Positions 43,619 through 52,650 of a stretch of 64,000 nucleotides of DNA are shown piece after piece. Numbering within the stretch: position 1 is the stretch's first letter; every line of letters starts with the position of its first letter. A program made the translations under genes and the position numbers. The notes beneath the pieces were generated by a model. The model made no database searches. It was not told where the DNA came from and worked only from the letters and a program-made list of their open reading frames with translations. This stretch comes from Gemmata sp. Lineage in GTDB: Bacteria; Planctomycetota; Planctomycetia; Gemmatales; Gemmataceae. The DNA is taken from contig JANWYJ010000029.1 in the NCBI GenBank assembly GCA_025055115.1, positions 62,001 to 126,000 on the forward strand. The letters run 5' to 3'.

Positions 43619-44737
43619 TTAATCGAGATTGACAACCGAGCCATCGGACATCAGTGCCACCAGTTCGAGTGTGGCCGCCGGAACCGTTTCGCGGACAAAG
43701 CGAATGGACCCATCACCCATGGCGAACATGGCTCCGCCCGAATGGAGGCTACCGACGCGGCCCCAGTCGCCCAGGCGTCCCGGACGCGGGGGGTTGGTGC
43801 CGGTGGGGTTGCCGCAGGTGGTCCAGGTGGCGTTCAGCGACCAGTTATTGATACCTTGCGTGGGGTTGAAGCTGCTGGCGACCCGCGCGGTACCCGGGTC
43901 CAAACCAGTTTGCACCCAGCCACGATACGCCCACACTTCCCCCCAGCCATTGCACCGCGGTTCGACCAGGGTTTCGCCGAGCAAGAAGGTGTTGCTCGAG
44001 CCGTCCAGAGCATCTTCGATCTTGCTATTACTATTTTCACCAAAGTAGTAACGGGTGCCCGGGGTGGCACTGTTGCGCCACCAATTGCAGGTGCCGAAAT
44101 CACTGGCAGTACGGGTGATGAAGTCGTAGTTGGTGCGTTGACCGGGCAGGCCGGCACCTGCACCGTAACGGTTCGGGTGGGCCTGGGCGGTGCTTTGCCG
44201 CGGGCCGGGATCACTGGGGCAAATGAACATCGGAATCGGCGTGTTGGCGAGCCGCATATTCACGGTGGGGGCGGTGCTGACAGCCCCGGTGTTGCCCATC
44301 CACGGTGGCCCCGAGTAATCGCCCCGTTGGTTGCGAATCACGCCGGAGTTGTCCCAAATCACATCGCTGAAGGGCAGGTTCAAATCCATTTGCCGGAACA
44401 AGGCTTCTTGTTCAATGAAGGGCAAAACCAGAACCCATCCGTTCATGTTGAGAACGCGCGTCGCACCGTTGCCAGTTGTGGCACTGCCACAGAAACCATA
44501 GTTGACCCCGGCTGGCGGCAACGTTCCATTGGCGCTTTGATAGTTGTGACAGGCCAGCGCCAGTTGCTTGAGGTTGTTCGAACAGCGCATCCGGGCCGCC
44601 GCTTCCCGGACTTTCTGCACCGCGGGCAATAATAGACCGATGAGAATCGCGATAATCGCGATGACAACGAGAAGTTCAATCAGCGTGAAACCACGCGCGA
44701 CGAACCGAGAACGAGACCGTGTACAATAGGATAGCAT
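43619..44737 (-). CDS. DUF1559 pseudopilin-like protein
   Basis: A 372-residue protein from the ATG at 44737 (GAGGAG 8 nt upstream). The N-terminus has a type IV prepilin signature: RGFTLIELLVVIAIIAILIG, with processing expected after Gly and methylation of the following Phe, then the long helix LLPAVQKVREAAARMRCSNN. DUF1559 body and the C-terminal block LHSGGAMFAMGDGSIRFV complete the family pattern. Such proteins occur in tens to hundreds of copies in planctomycetes and probably form or decorate surface fibres via a type II secretion/pilus machine; none of that machine is in the window. Confidence 0.96.
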   Translation of the reverse strand: MLSYCTRSRSRFVARGFTLIELLVVIAIIAILIGLLLPAVQKVREAAARMRCSNNLKQLALACHNYQSANGTLPPAGVNYGFCGSATTGNGATRVLNMNGWVLVLPFIEQEALFRQMDLNLPFSDVIWDNSGVIRNQRGDYSGPPWMGNTGAVSTAPTVNMRLANTPIPMFICPSDPGPRQSTAQAHPNRYGAGAGLPGQRTNYDFITRTASDFGTCNWWRNSATPGTRYYFGENSNSKIEDALDGSSNTFLLGETLVEPRCNGWGEVWAYRGWVQTGLDPGTARVASSFNPTQGINNWSLNATWTTCGNPTGTNPPRPGRLGDWGRVGSLHSGGAMFAMGDGSIRFVRETVPAATLELVALMSDGSVVNLD

Positions 44738-44929
44738 TTTTCCACTCCTCACCCTAAATAGGAAGTGACAAAGGGTCCGAAGACCCCGAAAATTGGGGGA
44801 GTGTCCAAAATATACACACAACATTCATAGGCTGTAAAGTAGCTATTTGTCATTTTCGCCACCTCTGTGGCGCCGTTGAAAATTGTGCCGTCGTTGAAAA
44901 TCGGCTGGTGGCTGAAAAGGAAAGCCAAA

Positions 44930-46006
44930 TTAGAGAGCCAGTTCGACGCCCACTTCGCCCTCACGCACCTCGCCAATGCGCCAGGCGGGGATTCCGTCGT
45001 CCGACAGTTGTTGGATGATCTCCGCCGCCGCCGCCGCGGCTGCCACCACCACAAAACCGATGCCCATGTTGAAAACGCGGAACATTTCTGCGGTGGCGAT
45101 ATTCCCCAATCGTTGCAGCCAGGCAAACACCGGCGGGCAGGTCCATGACCCCCGCTGGATATACACTCGGCAGCCGGGGGGGAGAATACGGCTGATGTTG
45201 TCGGGCAGTCCACCTCCGGTGATATGGGCCAAACCGTGAATAGCCGGGCGGTGTGTCTGCAACAGCCGGCGGATGGGTCGAACGTAGAGCCGGGTGGGTG
45301 TCAATAGCTCCTCGCCCACCGTTCGGCCCAGTTCAGCTACGGGGTCGGTGACCTGCCGCTTCGCCACATCAAAGACGACTTTCCGCGCCAGGCTGAAGCC
45401 ATTGGAGTGCAGGCCACTGGAGGCCAGGCCAATGACCGCGTCGCCTTGTTGGATGGTGTGGCCGTCGATGATGTGGTCGCGTTCGACAAGCCCGGCGGCG
45501 AATCCGGCCAGATCGAAGTCGCCCGGCTGGTAGAAATCGGGCAGGATGGCTGTTTCGCCGCCCACGAGGGCACAGCCTGATTCGCGGCAACCATCAGCGA
45601 TGCCTTGTACCAATTGTTCGGTGAGAGTTGGGTTGTCGTGGGCCATGGCGAGATAATCGAGGAATACCAGTGGTTCTCCTCCGGTACAGATGAGGTCGTT
45701 GACCGCCATGGCCACCAGGTCGATACCGACGGTGTCGAACTGGTGCATCGCTTGTGCGATTTTGAGCTTACTCCCGACGCCATCGGTGCAGCTGACCAAT
45801 ACGGGATGGGTGTAGTTTCCGGCCGCGGCCAGATCGAACAGACTCGCAAAGCCGCCAACGCCTTTGCCGCCGCGGCGTGGCGGAAAGGGGGGGGGAATCA
45901 CGCCGGGGCGGTGTGTACGGGCCAGATGCGTTTGCAGAGCCGCGATGGTTTGCTCGTATTGGTCGAGGTCGAGGCCGGCTTTTTTGTAATCCCACGATTC
46001 GGGCAT
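44930..46006 (-). CDS. purM: Phosphoribosylformylglycinamidine cyclo-ligase
   Basis: Fifth step of purine synthesis: ATP-dependent closure of the imidazole ring to give AIR. It has 358 residues from the ATG at 46006 (MPESWDYKKAGLDLDQYEQ); the long upstream extension is unrelated. Family motifs: SCTDGVGSKLKIAQAM, IDLVAMAVNDLICTGGEPLVFLDY, CALVGGETAILPDFY, DAVIGLASSGLHSNGFSLAR and HITGGGLPDNISRILP. Length is normal. An Ala-rich run (VVVAAAAAAAEIIQQL) encoded by repeated GCC/GCG codons lies near the C-terminus. No other pur gene is adjacent. Confidence 0.97.
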   Translation of the reverse strand: MPESWDYKKAGLDLDQYEQTIAALQTHLARTHRPGVIPPPFPPRRGGKGVGGFASLFDLAAAGNYTHPVLVSCTDGVGSKLKIAQAMHQFDTVGIDLVAMAVNDLICTGGEPLVFLDYLAMAHDNPTLTEQLVQGIADGCRESGCALVGGETAILPDFYQPGDFDLAGFAAGLVERDHIIDGHTIQQGDAVIGLASSGLHSNGFSLARKVVFDVAKRQVTDPVAELGRTVGEELLTPTRLYVRPIRRLLQTHRPAIHGLAHITGGGLPDNISRILPPGCRVYIQRGSWTCPPVFAWLQRLGNIATAEMFRVFNMGIGFVVVAAAAAAAEIIQQLSDDGIPAWRIGEVREGEVGVELAL

Positions 46007-46177
46007 AGTGGCGTCCTTGTGAAGAAAATGTCGCGCTGGCTGGGGGGCCTTTGTCGCGAGTTCCCCGGAACCCGGCATTGACCGCGGTTCCCCCCTCGGG
46101 CTATAGTCCCCGCCCCGCGGCCAGAACTGAGCCGGCTGCGTGTCCAACTGCTGTCCAACCATCGGGATGGGTGGGGA

Positions 46178-47716
46178 ATGTCGTTTGCGCTTTGGGCCCA
46201 TACCACAGTGGCTTCTGCAGCACCGTCTTATGAATCCGAGTTTGCCTATTTCCGCTGGCTGCACGAACTATTGCCAGCGCCGTTCTTTCATACCCAACCG
46301 TTTCTTGTATTTTTGGCGGGGGTTCTTGTCGCGTACTGGATGATCCCCCGCCGCTGGATGATGGCCCGCATTTGGTTGCTGGTGGTCGCCAGCTTTCACT
46401 TTTACGCCGCATGGAGTTACGAACTTGCATTTCTGGTGACCGGCACCACGATCGCCGATTATCTGTTCGGCCGATGCATGGGGCTGACGAACCGGCCGAG
46501 GCTACGCCGGGCGATCCTGTTGTCCAGTATCGGTATGAACCTGGGCATTCTCTGCTACTTCAAATACCGGGGATTCTTCCTGAACGAACTGTACGAGGCC
46601 TTGGTGACACTGGGCTATTCACCCAGTTTTGCCCCCCTGGATCCGCTCACGATCATCATTCCGTTTGGCATTTCGTTTTACACCTTTGAAGCCATCAGTT
46701 ACGCGGTCGATGTTTACACGCGCAAAATTGAGCCGGAGAAGAGCCTGCCGCGCTTTTTACTCTTCATACTGTTCTTCCCGCATCTGGTGGCCGGACCGAT
46801 TGTCCGCGCGGGTGATTTTCTGCGGCAAACCCGGCGTCCGAAACGGTGGAATTGGCTGCGGGTGCAAGTGGGGGTCCAGCTCTTTTTGATCGGCGCCTTC
46901 AAGAAAATGGCCATTGCCGACCGTATGGCGCTATTCTGCGACCCGGTGCTAAGCCATCCGGAAGCCTACAACTCGGTGGCGATGTGGTTTGCTGTGCTGG
47001 CGTATAGTGTGCGCATCTACTGTGACTTTTCCGGCTACTCCGATATGGCCATTGGTGCGGCTCACTTGCTCGGCTACAAGCTGACGATGAACTTCAACAT
47101 GCCGTATTTGGCCGTGAACGTTTCGGATTTCTGGCGACGCTGGCACATTTCGCTCTCCACATGGCTGCGCGACTACGTCTTTATTCCGCTGGGGGGCAGT
47201 CGCGGTTCGCGTTGGCTCAATTATCGCAATTTGATGATCACGATGACGCTGGGCGGGTTGTGGCACGGGGCTGCGTGGGGCTACATCGTGTGGGGCGTGG
47301 CCCACGGGGCTTTGTTAGTGATCCACAAACAGTTCCAGTTCTTCTGCCACGACAAACCGCGCCTGACCGCCTTCCTCGAGACCGCTTTGGGCACCGGTCT
47401 GCGTATTTTCGTCACCTTTTTCTGTGTGAGTATGTGTTGGGTGTTATTCCAACCGCAGTTGAGCCAGGCACTGGTGGTGTTCAGCAAACTTTTCTACATC
47501 CAACCGGGCTTGCGCCTGGAGATGAGCAATCAGAGCTTGTGGGCGACGGTGATCTTCTTGTTGGTCTGCCAGTGGCTGGTGCGCAGTGGGCTGTGGGCGA
47601 AAATCTCCGCGCGAATGCCAGCCCCGGTGCTGGGAGCAGGCTATGCGGTCTGTTTGTGTACGGCTTTGGTTCTCGCTCCGGCCAATAGCAGTACCTTCAT
47701 TTACTTCCAGTTTTGA
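46178..47716 (+). CDS. MBOAT O-acyltransferase (AlgI/DltB-like)
   Basis: Membrane-bound O-acyltransferase that passes acyl groups across the membrane to a polymer, as AlgI does for alginate. It has 512 residues and about 10-12 spans. Family motifs: PFGISFYTFEAISYAVDVYT, FFPHLVAGPIVRAGDFLRQ, YCDFSGYSDMAIGAAHLLGY, NMPYLAVNVSDFWRRWHISL and the catalytic-His region GGLWHGAAWGYIVWG. It is followed by two SGNH-like membrane proteins (25 and 41 bp gaps), the usual partners that complete transfer to the polymer. The acceptor polymer is unknown. Confidence 0.95.
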   Translation: MSFALWAHTTVASAAPSYESEFAYFRWLHELLPAPFFHTQPFLVFLAGVLVAYWMIPRRWMMARIWLLVVASFHFYAAWSYELAFLVTGTTIADYLFGRCMGLTNRPRLRRAILLSSIGMNLGILCYFKYRGFFLNELYEALVTLGYSPSFAPLDPLTIIIPFGISFYTFEAISYAVDVYTRKIEPEKSLPRFLLFILFFPHLVAGPIVRAGDFLRQTRRPKRWNWLRVQVGVQLFLIGAFKKMAIADRMALFCDPVLSHPEAYNSVAMWFAVLAYSVRIYCDFSGYSDMAIGAAHLLGYKLTMNFNMPYLAVNVSDFWRRWHISLSTWLRDYVFIPLGGSRGSRWLNYRNLMITMTLGGLWHGAAWGYIVWGVAHGALLVIHKQFQFFCHDKPRLTAFLETALGTGLRIFVTFFCVSMCWVLFQPQLSQALVVFSKLFYIQPGLRLEMSNQSLWATVIFLLVCQWLVRSGLWAKISARMPAPVLGAGYAVCLCTALVLAPANSSTFIYFQF

Positions 47717-47741
47717 ACCTTCTGTGCGCTGGAGGTGAACC

Positions 47742-48899
47742 GTGCGCTCCGCGGCAATCACGAGGCCAACGCAACGATTCCGCCGACTGTCGCTGCGCTT
47801 GCGCGTAGTGAAAGTGCCGGCATTGCGCGGCGTTCGGGTGCGTTCGCCGCGGCGCGGGCGTGGTGCTCGGGTGGTCATCTTCAGCTTTCTGGTCGCGGTG
47901 GTGCTGCTGCATGGGGCCGTGGTGCTGATGATGGATGTGGTGTGGCCCCGGCTGCGCGATCCGGAATACGGCTTGCGCGTCGCGGCATTGCAGCAACGGC
48001 TGCGCGAATACCCACAACGGCCCTTGGTGCTGGCCATCGGCAACTCGCGGACGGCGATGGGGATTCGTCCGGAAGCGTGGGAGGCCGTTCGCCCAGGCAC
48101 GCCGAACGATCCACTGCTGTTCAACATGGCAATTGTCGGTAGCGGACCCATTCTCGAACTGCTGACTCTGCGTCGGGTGTATGCCGATGGTTTCCGCCCG
48201 GACCTGGTGTTGCTGGAGTACTGGCCACCATTTCTGCGCCAAGATGGCGAATTCGGTGAAGCGGCCCGCTTCGATCCGCGCCGTTTGCGCTGGAGTGACC
48301 GCGCCACGATCCGCAGCTACTACCCGAATGCCGCGGCGGTCGAGCGGCGGATGTGGCTGACACGCCTCAATGCCATCAGCGATAACCGCCAAAGCCTCTT
48401 GATTCAGACGGACGATGATTGGTTTCCGCGCCCCTGGCGGATCAACGGGAATTGGGTCGATCTCGATCCGTGGGGCTGGCTGCCGGGCATGGACCCCGCG
48501 CCGCAGGATGTTGCGACCCGCCGTCGCCTCATCGAACATCAACGCCCCTTCGCCATCGACCGCTTTCAGGGACACACGATTCATCCCGAATCGGATCGGG
48601 CCATCCGCGAAGCGGTGGCCCTCGTCCGCGCCCAAGGAGCTGAAGTGGCCTTGGTGTATTTGCCGGAATCGGCGGAGTATCAGAGTTGGTATCCGCCGGA
48701 TGTAGAACATGCCGCTTGTGCCCACCTCGCGACGCTGTGCCGCGAGTTGGGCGTGCCGGTCATCAACACCCGTGATTGGATGGACGAATGCTATCTCGCC
48801 GATGGTTTTCATCTGTCGCGAATCGGTGCTACCCTTTTCACCGCTCGGCTCGGCCCAGTGATGGCCGAATTGTTGGGGCCAAGTGGAAAGCGGCCGTAA
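47742..48899 (+). CDS. SGNH-like membrane protein, partner of the MBOAT (copy 1)
   Basis: A 385-residue protein. GTG start at 47742 with GGAGGTGAAC 7 nt upstream. Very basic N-terminus (residues 1-42), one span (VVIFSFLVAVVLLHGAVVLM), then the juxtamembrane VVWPRLRDPEYGLR shared with the next gene. The extracytoplasmic domain has an SGNH-like first block, VLAIGNSRTAMGIRPEAW (GNSRT with the nucleophile Ser), and a last block YLADGFHLSRIGATLF holding the Asp-x-x-His pair. These blocks resemble AlgJ/AlgX/DltD-type proteins that deliver acyl groups to a polymer. The family assignment rests on motif order and neighbours only. Confidence 0.82.
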   Translation: MRSAAITRPTQRFRRLSLRLRVVKVPALRGVRVRSPRRGRGARVVIFSFLVAVVLLHGAVVLMMDVVWPRLRDPEYGLRVAALQQRLREYPQRPLVLAIGNSRTAMGIRPEAWEAVRPGTPNDPLLFNMAIVGSGPILELLTLRRVYADGFRPDLVLLEYWPPFLRQDGEFGEAARFDPRRLRWSDRATIRSYYPNAAAVERRMWLTRLNAISDNRQSLLIQTDDDWFPRPWRINGNWVDLDPWGWLPGMDPAPQDVATRRRLIEHQRPFAIDRFQGHTIHPESDRAIREAVALVRAQGAEVALVYLPESAEYQSWYPPDVEHAACAHLATLCRELGVPVINTRDWMDECYLADGFHLSRIGATLFTARLGPVMAELLGPSGKRP

Positions 48900-48940
48900 T
48901 TGTCACCACGCCGTCAGCCGTTCCGGCACCGCCGCCACAA

Positions 48941-49975
48941 GTGCCACGCTGGCGGTCGGCCCGGCAGGCGGTTCTGTGGGGGTTGGCTGCGATTCTGCTA
49001 GCGAATGTGGCGTTGGCCGTCGCTGTGGAAACCGTGTGGCCCCAGTTACGCGATCCGGAATACGGCTACCGCATCATGCGACTGCGTCAGCTCCAGCAAC
49101 AGTGGCCGCAGCGACCGTGGATATTGGTTATCGGCTCATCGCGCACACAGAATGCGATTGATCCCCAAGCGATGGGGTTAGCGGAACAACCGGATAGGCC
49201 CTGGGTGTTCAACTTTGGGATCGCCGGGGCCGGCCCAGTTCATCAACGTCTTCTGTTGCAAAAGCTGTTGGCCCAAAACATCCGACCCACCGCGGTGTTG
49301 GCCGAACTGTTACCCGTCACACTCGCCACGCATCACAACGTCGATCCGATCTTCACACTCCAAGTGTCGCGGTTGAGTTATGACGATGTCCAGCGCCTGG
49401 AACCGTATCTGGCCCATCCCCGCGAACTCCGCCGCCGTTGGCTCAAAGAACGGCTGGATACCTGGAGTTCCCAACAGCCGGTGTTGTTGAGCCACATCGC
49501 GCCATCGTGGCAAGCGTGGGCGCAGCGGATCGATCACCAGTGGGAAATGCTCGACGATTTCGGTTACACCCCGTACCCCGAGCATCACGCCGCGCACAAG
49601 CGAGCCCAGCGCCAGGAAGTGGCTCGCTCCGAATACGCCGATTACCTCCGCGATCTACACATCAGTGAACTGGCGACCCGGGCGATCCGCGATCTGGTCA
49701 GCGAGGCTCGCGCCGCGGGCATCCCGGTGGCATTTTTTATCACCCCCGAATCGCCGCTATTTCGCAGTTGGTACTCGCCGCTAACCCAAGAACGGCTCCA
49801 CGCCTACATCGACCAACTGACACATCAACTGGCCTGCCCCGTGTTTCTCCCCCCCACCGATTTCACGGAAGACGACTTCGCCGATGGGCACCACATTCTG
49901 CCGGCTGCGGCCGCCCGCTACAGCCGTTGGCTGGCCCAGACCCATCTGCAATCGTGGTTACAACACCACCGCTAG
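48941..49975 (+). CDS. SGNH-like membrane protein, partner of the MBOAT (copy 2)
   Basis: Tandem paralogue of the preceding gene, 344 residues if started at the GTG at 48941. An overlapping upstream start (48788 ATG) would run 110 bp inside the first copy, and an ATT overlaps the first copy's stop at 48899; the true start is uncertain. One span (QAVLWGLAAILLANVALAVAV), then ETVWPQLRDPEYGYRIMRLR matching the first copy, SGNH block VIGSSRTQNAIDPQAM (GSSRT), and a closing DFADGHHILPAAAARYSRWL (Asp-Gly-His-His). It probably acts at the same step as copy 1, perhaps as a heteromer. Confidence 0.78.
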   Translation: MPRWRSARQAVLWGLAAILLANVALAVAVETVWPQLRDPEYGYRIMRLRQLQQQWPQRPWILVIGSSRTQNAIDPQAMGLAEQPDRPWVFNFGIAGAGPVHQRLLLQKLLAQNIRPTAVLAELLPVTLATHHNVDPIFTLQVSRLSYDDVQRLEPYLAHPRELRRRWLKERLDTWSSQQPVLLSHIAPSWQAWAQRIDHQWEMLDDFGYTPYPEHHAAHKRAQRQEVARSEYADYLRDLHISELATRAIRDLVSEARAAGIPVAFFITPESPLFRSWYSPLTQERLHAYIDQLTHQLACPVFLPPTDFTEDDFADGHHILPAAAARYSRWLAQTHLQSWLQHHR

Positions 49976-50565
49976 CGGCGTCAACGCGGCACTGGCTTCC
50001 GCCTCCTTTGCACCCTCGGAGAAAAGTCTTGTGTCAACCCGATCCCCATCTTGCGGCGCTGGCGTCGAAAGCCCTCCCCGATGGGATCGGTACGGAGAGC
50101 TGGCAGCGATCAGTTGCGATCCTATCATGCGATCCTATCAGTTGTGATCCTATCAGTTGCGATCTCTGTTAATGGTGCTAAGGCGCAGGGAGCCGTTGCC
50201 TGGTCGAGCGATACCGGCGGGGCAACGGTCGCTTGGGATCAACTGGGTCGAGGGGCCAACGCCGGTGTTGGCTTCTGATGATCTGCGCGGCGCTGAGGCG
50301 GACAGCGACAGTACCAGCGATGGTGAGACCTTGACCGGTGAAGAATTGGCTCCCGTGGGACAACTTGGCCGCGAAGAGCTTGCCGCCCTCGATGAGGAGA
50401 CCATCGAGGGTGAAGAATTGGCTCCCGTGGAATAACTTGGCCATGGCCCGCCCCCTCCCGAAGCCCAACTCACGATTCCGCGCTGGGACGGCTGGAAAAG
50501 CAGAGTTGTTTGTGAGGCACTTCTTCCTCTTGCGAAGCCCAACTCACGATTCTGCGCTGGGACCG

Positions 50566-51588: not shown

Positions 51589-51604
51589 CTAACTTTCCGG
51601 CGAC
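51471..51604. repeat. Duplicated 3' end of selD
   Basis: A ~40-bp unit (core GCCAATTCTAACTTTCCGGC) occurs at 51471-51510 and 51565-51604. The second copy contains the selD stop codon and last four sense codons (CTAACTTTCCGG, i.e. ...SPES-stop); the first is a free copy in the spacer. Confidence 0.85.
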
Positions 51605-52650
51605 AACACCACCCGGATTGTCCCCCTCCCCTCACCGGCGATGCGCCCCACATGGGCACTGGCGAAAGTCCCGGCGGCCGCAAGTGCGCGAATAACTTCG
51701 TCGACTTGAGCAGTGGGTACAGCGGCCAATAGCCCGCCGGAGGTTTGCGCATCGCACAGCAGCAATTGCTGTTCCAGCGGGATTTCCGGGGCATACTCGA
51801 CCCAATCGGTGAGGAACTTCCAATTGGCCCGGGTTCCTCCCGGAGCAATCCCCGCTTGGACATACTCACGAGCCGCGGGCAACACCGGGACCCGTTGCGC
51901 CCACACTTCCGCGGTAACACCACTGGCCGCCGTGATGTTGCGCAGATGGCCCAAAAGACCAAAGCCCGTAACATCCGTCAGGGCATGAACTTCAAACCGC
52001 GCTAGCACTTCAGCGGCGACACGATTGAGCGTTGTCATCACGGCGATGGCTTCCGCAATGGCGCTGTGGGTGTCTTGGTCGTTTTTCGCCGCGGTGGTGA
52101 TGATGCCCAACCCTAAGGGTTTGGTCAGAATGAGAGCATCGCCCGGCCTGGCGCCGGCATTGCTCAGAACGCGCTGAGGATGAACCGTTCCGACCACAGC
52201 CAAGCCAAAGATCGGTTCTTCACTTTTGATAGTGTGCCCGCCGATGATGGCGATTCCGGCCTCCTGGGCGATGGCCGCCGCCCCGGCCAGAATTTCGCCC
52301 AAGACCGTGGCGGGCAGGGAATCAGGAAAGCCCACGATGCTCAAGGCCGCTGTGGGCTGGCCGCCCATCGCGTAAATATCCGACAGAGCATTGGCCGCTG
52401 CCACACGCCCGAAATCGCGGGGGCTATCGACAATGGGCGTGAAGAAATCGGTGGTCAGCACCAGGGCCAGTTCGTCATTGAGTTTGTAGATGGCCGCATC
52501 GTCGGCGGTGGAACTGCCGACCAGGACGTTCGGATCGTGGACTGGGGGCAGCAGGCCCAACAGGGGCAGCAAGAAACCGGGGGGGTGTTTGGCCGCGCAG
52601 CCGGCCCGTTTGGCCAGCTTGGTCAAGCGGAGGGGTTCCGTCGTGTTCAT
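51589..52650 (-). CDS. selD: Selenide, water dikinase
   Basis: Makes selenophosphate from selenide and ATP for selenocysteine and/or selenouridine synthesis. It has 353 residues from the ATG at 52650 (GGGAG upstream). The N-terminal active-site loop is AKRAGCAAKHPPG, with Cys18 at the catalytic Cys/Sec position and Lys21 as the essential Lys; it is the Cys form, not a selenoprotein. ATP-site motifs: STADDAAIYKL, VLTTDFFTPIVD, ANALSDIYAMGG, GGHTIKSEEPIFGLAVVG, LTDVTGFGLLGHL and CDAQTSGGLLAAV. No selA, selB, selU or tRNA-Sec is in the window, so which selenium pathway it serves is unknown. Confidence 0.96.
   Translation of the reverse strand: MNTTEPLRLTKLAKRAGCAAKHPPGFLLPLLGLLPPVHDPNVLVGSSTADDAAIYKLNDELALVLTTDFFTPIVDSPRDFGRVAAANALSDIYAMGGQPTAALSIVGFPDSLPATVLGEILAGAAAIAQEAGIAIIGGHTIKSEEPIFGLAVVGTVHPQRVLSNAGARPGDALILTKPLGLGIITTAAKNDQDTHSAIAEAIAVMTTLNRVAAEVLARFEVHALTDVTGFGLLGHLRNITAASGVTAEVWAQRVPVLPAAREYVQAGIAPGGTRANWKFLTDWVEYAPEIPLEQQLLLCDAQTSGGLLAAVPTAQVDEVIRALAAAGTFASAHVGRIAGEGRGTIRVVLSPES

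Follow-up and report, generated by a model that had tools for sequence, protein, structure and literature searches.

Several described acylation systems couple an MBOAT protein to proteins of the SGNH family. According to the sections of a 2025 study of PatAB drawn on here (PMC12148441), PatA auto-acetylates the tyrosine of its own C-terminal FXYXXF sequence, defined as the acyl-shuttle motif and found in PatA and DltX, and PatB, for which tethering by a single N-terminal helix is proposed, takes an acetyl-tyrosine peptide as the donor. The authors of that study consider that the model likely extends to other MBOAT-SGNH systems. Two SGNH proteins per MBOAT are already known, both from AlgI/AlgJ/AlgX and from the patA-patB-ape1 operon, which in the same sections is given as an MBOAT plus two SGNH-family proteins. 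AlgJ and AlgX differ in role, the terminal enzyme being AlgX, and both are circularly permuted, with an H-S-G-N block order and a DxH motif, as stated in the portion of PMC4148444 used here. In this work we analyzed a stretch of 64,000 nucleotides from Gemmata sp. (assembly GCA_025055115.1, contig JANWYJ010000029.1, positions 62,001 to 126,000 of the forward strand), hereafter called the window, which contains a trio of genes for one MBOAT and two SGNH proteins (SGNH-1 and SGNH-2). We consider it fairly probable that the trio constitutes an envelope acyltransferase of the MBOAT-SGNH kind that has more than a single SGNH terminal enzyme and in which the SGNH proteins would be charged from a tyrosine and would each serve an acceptor of their own.

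Organization and catalytic motifs of the trio

The three genes are arranged head to tail on the forward strand and are tightly linked. The MBOAT gene (46178..47716, +) encodes 512 amino acids and matched PF03062 with 114 bits (cut-off, 27; E = 1e-32), the sole match to this family in the genome (4.93 Mb, rated 98% complete). Its histidines His323 (codon 47144-47146) and His363 of the WHG motif (codon 47264-47266) were invariant in the 31 MBOAT proteins aligned, namely, the open reading frames (ORFs) of more than 400 amino acids in loci L063 to L102 plus that of the window. The last six residues, FIYFQF (47696..47713, +), constitute an FXYXXF acyl-shuttle motif, with Tyr509 encoded at 47702-47704, and F507, Y509, and F512 were likewise conserved in 31/31 proteins.

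The SGNH-1 ORF (47742..48899, +; 385 amino acids) begins 25 bp after the MBOAT ORF and encodes an N-terminal transmembrane anchor, the juxtamembrane block WPRLRDPEYG, and a DltD-like SGNH domain, with the nucleophile serine of GNSR at 48045..48047 and the aspartate and histidine of DGFH at 48801-48803 and 48810-48812, respectively. SGNH-2 (about 48899..49975, +) has the same layout, with the block WPQLRDPEYG between its transmembrane anchor and its DltD-like SGNH domain, the serine of GSSR at 49139..49141, and the aspartate and histidine of DGHH at 49883-49885 and 49892-49894. The two proteins are 31% identical (107/346 residues; E = 1e-46 by BLASTP) and are thus true paralogues. SGNH-1 and SGNH-2 were the only relatives of the family found when the genome was searched with either SGNH-2 or the family profile, the profile search scoring 13 of 50 candidates. 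The initial annotation had described an MBOAT at these coordinates followed by two paralogous SGNH partners, each with a membrane anchor, and in this it was correct, as judged by the ORFs, PF03062, BLASTP, and the single long N-terminal helix (residues 16-45) of each structural model.

The beginning of SGNH-2 is less clear-cut, with candidate starts at ATG 48788, ATT 48899, and GTG 48941. At the position expected, just past the SGNH-1 stop, ATG, GTG, and TTG are absent, and an in-frame ATT overlaps the stop codon (TAATT). This overlap occurs both in the window and in its nearest relative (G017, locus L082), and several orthologues have a GTG or ATG nearby. The upstream in-frame ATG is also present in G017, while the downstream GTG is found in the window only. 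From the sequence, the start codon of SGNH-2 is possibly ATT.

SGNH folds and family membership

AlphaFold (AF2) models were of high confidence for both proteins. The part of SGNH-1 encoded from 47808 reached a predicted local distance difference test (pLDDT) score of 91.7 and a predicted template modeling (pTM) score of 0.90 with an alignment of 49 sequences, and that of SGNH-2 from 48902 reached 94.7 and 0.90, respectively, with 85 sequences. In both models the long N-terminal helix is followed by the WPxLRDPEYG block, a second helix, and the catalytic domain. In Foldseek searches of the PDB, the top match of SGNH-1 was DltD (6o93; E = 3.3e-6), which also took all of the top seven rows for SGNH-2 (best E = 2.7e-4), and VIA aligned SGNH-1 with DltD with Z scores of 12.9 to 13.8 over 254 to 267 residues. 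The structural modeling that had been proposed as a check of the initial annotation thus bore it out: both paralogues are predicted to have SGNH folds (AlphaFold and Foldseek; VIA for SGNH-1).

Of 91 SGNH matches, 6 were partial and were removed, leaving 85 copies for alignment. In all of them the glycine and serine of GxS, one proline, and the aspartate and histidine of DxxH were invariant, and the serine block always preceded DxxH, which is the canonical order. The invariant catalytic columns correspond to S80, D332, and H335 in SGNH-1 (alignment A2) and to S80, D328, and H331 in SGNH-2 (alignment A1). The trio therefore combines the features that characterize bacterial PatA-type MBOAT-SGNH systems, that is, an MBOAT with the conserved histidine, a C-terminal FXYXXF, and an adjacent SGNH protein with Ser-Asp-His.

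As to family, 75 of the 85 members matched DUF1574 (PF07611, SGNH clan) at an E value of 0.01 or better. SGNH-2 did so with 36.3 bits (E = 5.4e-9; cut-off, 29.1), its best stretch covering profile positions 62-133 (72/342), and SGNH-1 scored 16.9 bits, under the cut-off. The PatB (DUF459) model was not among the four Pfam families matched by any of the 85 members, nor was the DltD model among their Pfam matches at an E value of 0.01. DUF1574 appears among the domains without known activity in the part of a review that covers it (PMC9487903). As a phylum-wide marker DUF1574 proved too insensitive and was rejected; it matched in 3/199 genomes, the window's own included.

The initial annotation had based a division of labor between the two paralogues on the contrasts GNSRT/GSSRT and DGFH/DGHH. 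These residues do not support it: the differences fall on noncatalytic spacers, and the serine, aspartate, and histidine are identical. Among the 85 copies the spacer of GxS was S in 51, T in 30, and N in 4, and class C copies (the class of SGNH-1, see below) carry both DGFH and DGHH as well as GSS, GTS, and GNS, so that the spacers do not mark classes. The juxtamembrane block, which had been pointed out as shared by the pair, is indeed present in both (WPxLRDPEYG), but it is not specific to them, since its core is family wide (D in 73/85 and P in 76/85 copies). Residues that do differ between classes exist elsewhere: at eight positions, class C and class D are each at least 85% fixed, but for different residues; these include the positions 4 and 11 past the nucleophile serine and 2 past the catalytic histidine. 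M106 and W113 of SGNH-1 and N87 and M94 of SGNH-2 are examples of class-specific residues.

Ordered SGNH arrays in relatives

Of 59 genomes, comprising that of the window and those of 58 relatives, 45 had a match to the MBOAT and 34 to SGNH-2. With the family's own profile, at least 42 of 149 genomes of a phylum sample and at least 60 of 95 genomes of the window's taxonomic family (E = 1e-25) were matched, part of the first-look candidates being scored in both searches. Sixty loci were fetched, which gave 61 with the window, and their SGNH copies were sorted with class profiles. The training set of these profiles consisted of one genus and genome G025, within which the assignment is not independent. 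Twenty of the loci were picked by eye from the taxonomic-family search, favoring contigs with several matches, and therefore give no measure of how frequent long arrays are.

In many relatives within the same taxonomic family the MBOAT gene is followed by one to five SGNH paralogues, whose classes succeed one another in the order A-B-C-D-E. Full ABCDE arrays were found in L070, L072, and L074, ABCD arrays in L064 and L067 and, in other genera, in L115, L116, and L121, and ABCDD arrays in L122 and L123. Shorter sets comprised ACDE (L068 and L075), ACDEE (L071), ACD (L063, L089, and L126 to L129), ABC with no linked D (L117, L130, and L131), CD (the window, in which SGNH-1 is of class C and SGNH-2 of class D, and L082), AC (L069), and AE (L081). 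An MBOAT with a single adjacent copy was found in other genera (e.g., L086, L091, and L095) as well as in L099, which belongs to a different family of the order; in these four loci the copies were weakly classed, by margins of 3 to 21 bits. Two or more copies were present in 42/61 loci, of which L088, L093, and L098 could not be ordered, having fewer than two copies classed at a 30-bit margin. In the remaining 39 loci, six of which had no MBOAT on the stretch examined (L066, L080, L087, and L132 to L134), the order AB, then C, then DE held without exception (137/137 pairs of unlike class); L132 has an additional, weakly classed copy.

An earlier class tree kept 76 copies, with nine very divergent rows left out. 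In a FastTree tree of 148 copies, the confidently classed members of C (34/34; support, 0.985), B (17/17; 0.993), and E (9/9; 0.947) formed clades, and the superclasses AB (54/55) and DE (42/43) were near-clades with one foreign row each. Classes A (30/38) and D were not clean clades. Deviations from the usual layout were also observed: in L119 and L120 (genome G292) one SGNH copy lies on each side of the MBOAT, and class D copies unlinked to an MBOAT array occur in L076 (genome G013) and L118 (genome G273).

Arrays with A, C, and D are present in at least six genera, and the two copies of the window are therefore explained most simply by loss of A and B, so that its C plus D would be, by parsimony, the remnant of a longer set. 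The two paralogues had been suggested to act as a pair. In favor of this, C and D occur together in 12/18 MBOAT-bearing loci of the window's genus; they are not an obligate pair, though, because other genomes keep A+C, A+E, or A+B+C and arrays reach five copies. As to conservation of the trio, another check put forward initially, in many relatives an MBOAT is followed by an SGNH array whose set of copies varies from one to five. A distant relative with a single copy performing the same role had been named as evidence to the contrary; single-copy relatives do exist, as listed above, which corresponds to that situation at least in form.

Pairwise comparison with G017 gave ratios of nonsynonymous to synonymous substitutions (dN/dS) of 0.094 for the MBOAT, 0.116 for SGNH-1, and 0.150 for SGNH-2, and values of 0.12 to 0.22 were obtained for classes A to E (pairs G008/G010 and G008/G012). 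To judge from these values, none of the tested copies looks like a decaying duplicate, each being under purifying selection. The idea that the paralogues divide the work is thus likely on account of their separate ancient classes and purifying selection, and not through the spacer residues first cited for it.

Proposed mechanism and alternative explanations

The following course of events may be proposed on the basis of what the analysis showed, namely, the gene content, the motifs and triads, the predicted folds, the ancient classes with their conserved order, and purifying selection. The MBOAT would take an acyl group, probably acetyl, from cytoplasmic acyl-CoA via His363 and load it on its own Tyr509, within a C-terminal FIYFQF that would face the periplasm. 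The acyl-tyrosine would then swing to the catalytic serine of one of the anchored DltD-like SGNH proteins, which would be placed next to the MBOAT by their transmembrane helix and the juxtamembrane RDPEYG segment. Each SGNH class would in turn acylate a surface or envelope glycan at an acceptor site of its own. The tyrosine-to-serine relay is suggested by homology to PatAB and Dlt. As for acetyl as the acyl group, a glycan as the acceptor, docking of the juxtamembrane segment on the MBOAT, and an acceptor or position specific to each class, these are what we infer. Acylation of a surface polymer by an MBOAT and two SGNH partners, as first annotated, is supported as probable, the polymer being its putative part. 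With several SGNH classes to a single MBOAT, the latter would act as the donor common to all of them, and the classes would be distinguished by their acceptors. More tentatively, the acyl-tyrosine could act as a single hub for as many as five SGNH acyltransferases from the ancient classes, every one of which would acylate an envelope glycan at a different position; A-B-C-D-E might then represent an inherited acylation code, trimmed to C plus D in lineages such as that of the window.

Several observations weigh against this interpretation. No polymer operon adjoins the array, and the recurrent neighbors do not name the polymer. The DltD matches of Foldseek had query TM-scores of only 0.34 to 0.46 with both models, and in VIA the smaller hydrolase TesA obtained a Z score of 14.4 over 166 residues with SGNH-1 versus 13.8 over 254 residues for DltD, which by VIA's own rule counts as a tie. 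A sequence search of the PDB gave no match for SGNH-1 or the SGNH family profile, and the kinship with DltD therefore rests on fold. Ser-Asp-His triads, moreover, do not separate transferases from hydrolases. Regarding the order, 35 of the 39 loci hold two or more superclasses and none of 20,000 shuffles ordered all 35 (at most 17), but the loci share descent, so that this result is not a probability; besides, L088 and L093 would violate the order if the weak class assignments of some of their copies were accepted as they stand. Finally, in genome G014 a family MBOAT has no adjoining SGNH gene (L077), and a solitary class C copy is located at another site (L078), from which it is seen that the array can break up.

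An alternative is that one SGNH protein, PatB-like, transfers the acyl group and the other, Ape1-like, removes it. The patA-patB-ape1 operon provides a precedent of the same gene content in the cited sections of PMC12148441, the low identity of C and D would suit two different activities, the triads by themselves fit an esterase as well as a transferase, and in VIA SGNH-1 also lies close to hydrolases such as TesA. Yet the two copies are alike in anchor, juxtamembrane block, and fold, their top Foldseek match is a transferase, and as many as five anchored copies to one MBOAT, with differing pairs retained (A+C in L069 versus A+E in L081), fit several terminal enzymes better; an eraser could also be provided by the separate BD-FAE-type hydrolase that lies beside the array in nine relatives (see below). 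We therefore regard a writer and an eraser as unlikely. Simple redundancy, with tandem duplicates acting on one substrate and copy number drifting, would account for the range of one to five copies, the two adjacent E copies of G009, and the triads intact in 85/85 members, but it is at odds with classes that predate several genera, with the class-specific residues kept at the eight positions, and with the conserved order and purifying selection on each class, and it too seems improbable. The third possibility, a relay or heteromer in the manner of AlgJ/AlgX, in which one SGNH protein hands the acyl group to the other and the latter modifies the polymer, appears very unlikely: the separate roles of AlgJ and AlgX and the frequent co-occurrence of C and D speak for it, but in L069, L117, L130, and L131 no D is linked to C, L081 has A+E and neither C nor D, and the block order of AlgJ/AlgX, as given in the cited portion of PMC4148444, is different.

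With several SGNH terminal enzymes sharing one MBOAT as the preferred reading, the locus suggests a function for the DUF1574-like SGNH group and brings to light a one-to-many MBOAT-SGNH layout. The literature searched contained no report of MBOAT arrays with several SGNH genes, of Gemmata MBOATs, of an MBOAT with up to five ordered anchored SGNH paralogues, or of a function for DUF1574-like proteins. Given one MBOAT and only two SGNH relatives in the genome, one deletion should remove the whole route, and the natural series of arrays with one to five partners allows the acceptor specificity of each SGNH protein to be tested singly.

Genomic context

Many clusters of neighboring genes corresponded to antisense ORFs of GC-rich genes; three real clusters were scanned, the purM-like one through the window's member. 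A divergent AIRS-family (purM-like) gene lies upstream in 12/31 MBOAT loci, and a family 2 glycosyltransferase is found about 3 to 4.5 kb upstream in five loci (3/5 members scanned). Just downstream of the array, nine loci (L063, L064, L067, L069, L070, L072, L074, L080, and L084) have a BD-FAE-type alpha/beta hydrolase, on the strand opposite to the array in 8/9 and matching PF20434 in 9/9. The name BD-FAE stands for feruloyl and acetyl-xylan esterases, and the hydrolase may therefore be a deacylase, a candidate partner in these nine relatives. PF20434 is common, being present in 13/14 control genomes, and had nine matches in the window's genome, none near the trio.

In the window, two AIRS-superfamily genes (PF00586 plus PF02769) bracket the trio, at 44930-46264 (-) and 51589-52650 (-); the latter may be a selenophosphate-synthetase-like paralogue. 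The gene at 43619-44824 (-) encodes a DUF1559 protein (PF07596) with an N-terminal methylation motif (PF07963), of a type common in planctomycetes. A 15-bp tandem repeat (ATCAGTTGCGATCCT, 3.9 copies) lies just downstream of SGNH-2, at 50109-50164. Promoter-like sites near the trio (3 versus a shuffle mean of 1.6; standard deviation [SD], 1.6) and terminator-like sites (6 versus 4.9; SD, 1.7) were within the shuffle range. Elsewhere in the genome, its only AT3-family match (PF01757; G000:C3:72-692), cut by a contig edge, represents a possible second, different acylation route.

Comparison with described systems

The trio resembles AlgI/AlgJ/AlgX in having one MBOAT and two SGNH-type proteins, and the initial annotation had likened it to alginate-type cassettes. 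This label had to be abandoned on block order and fold: the SGNH proteins of the trio run S...DxxH and are not permuted, unlike AlgJ and AlgX as described in the cited portion of PMC4148444, and their best solved match in Foldseek is DltD. The ALGX model had no match in the window's genome, but it had none in any control either, which makes this result uninformative.

With the Dlt system the trio shares the DltD-like fold of both SGNH models and an MBOAT that matches solved DltB and the DltB model TIGR04091 (E = 2e-52). It differs in that the MBOAT, with 178.6 bits, is under the DltB cut-off of 375 and carries the tyrosine motif itself. A Dlt system proper was rejected: the DltA model had five matches in the genome, none over the cut-off, the search having been for DltA and not for DltC or DltX.

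The likeness to PatA/PatB lies in the MBOAT, which in both cases has its own C-terminal FXYXXF tyrosine motif and a catalytic histidine, and in the separate SGNH partner. In contrast to PatB, the partners in the trio's family match DUF1574 or GDSL models, with 0/85 matching PatB/DUF459, and in many relatives two to five SGNH partners accompany each MBOAT.

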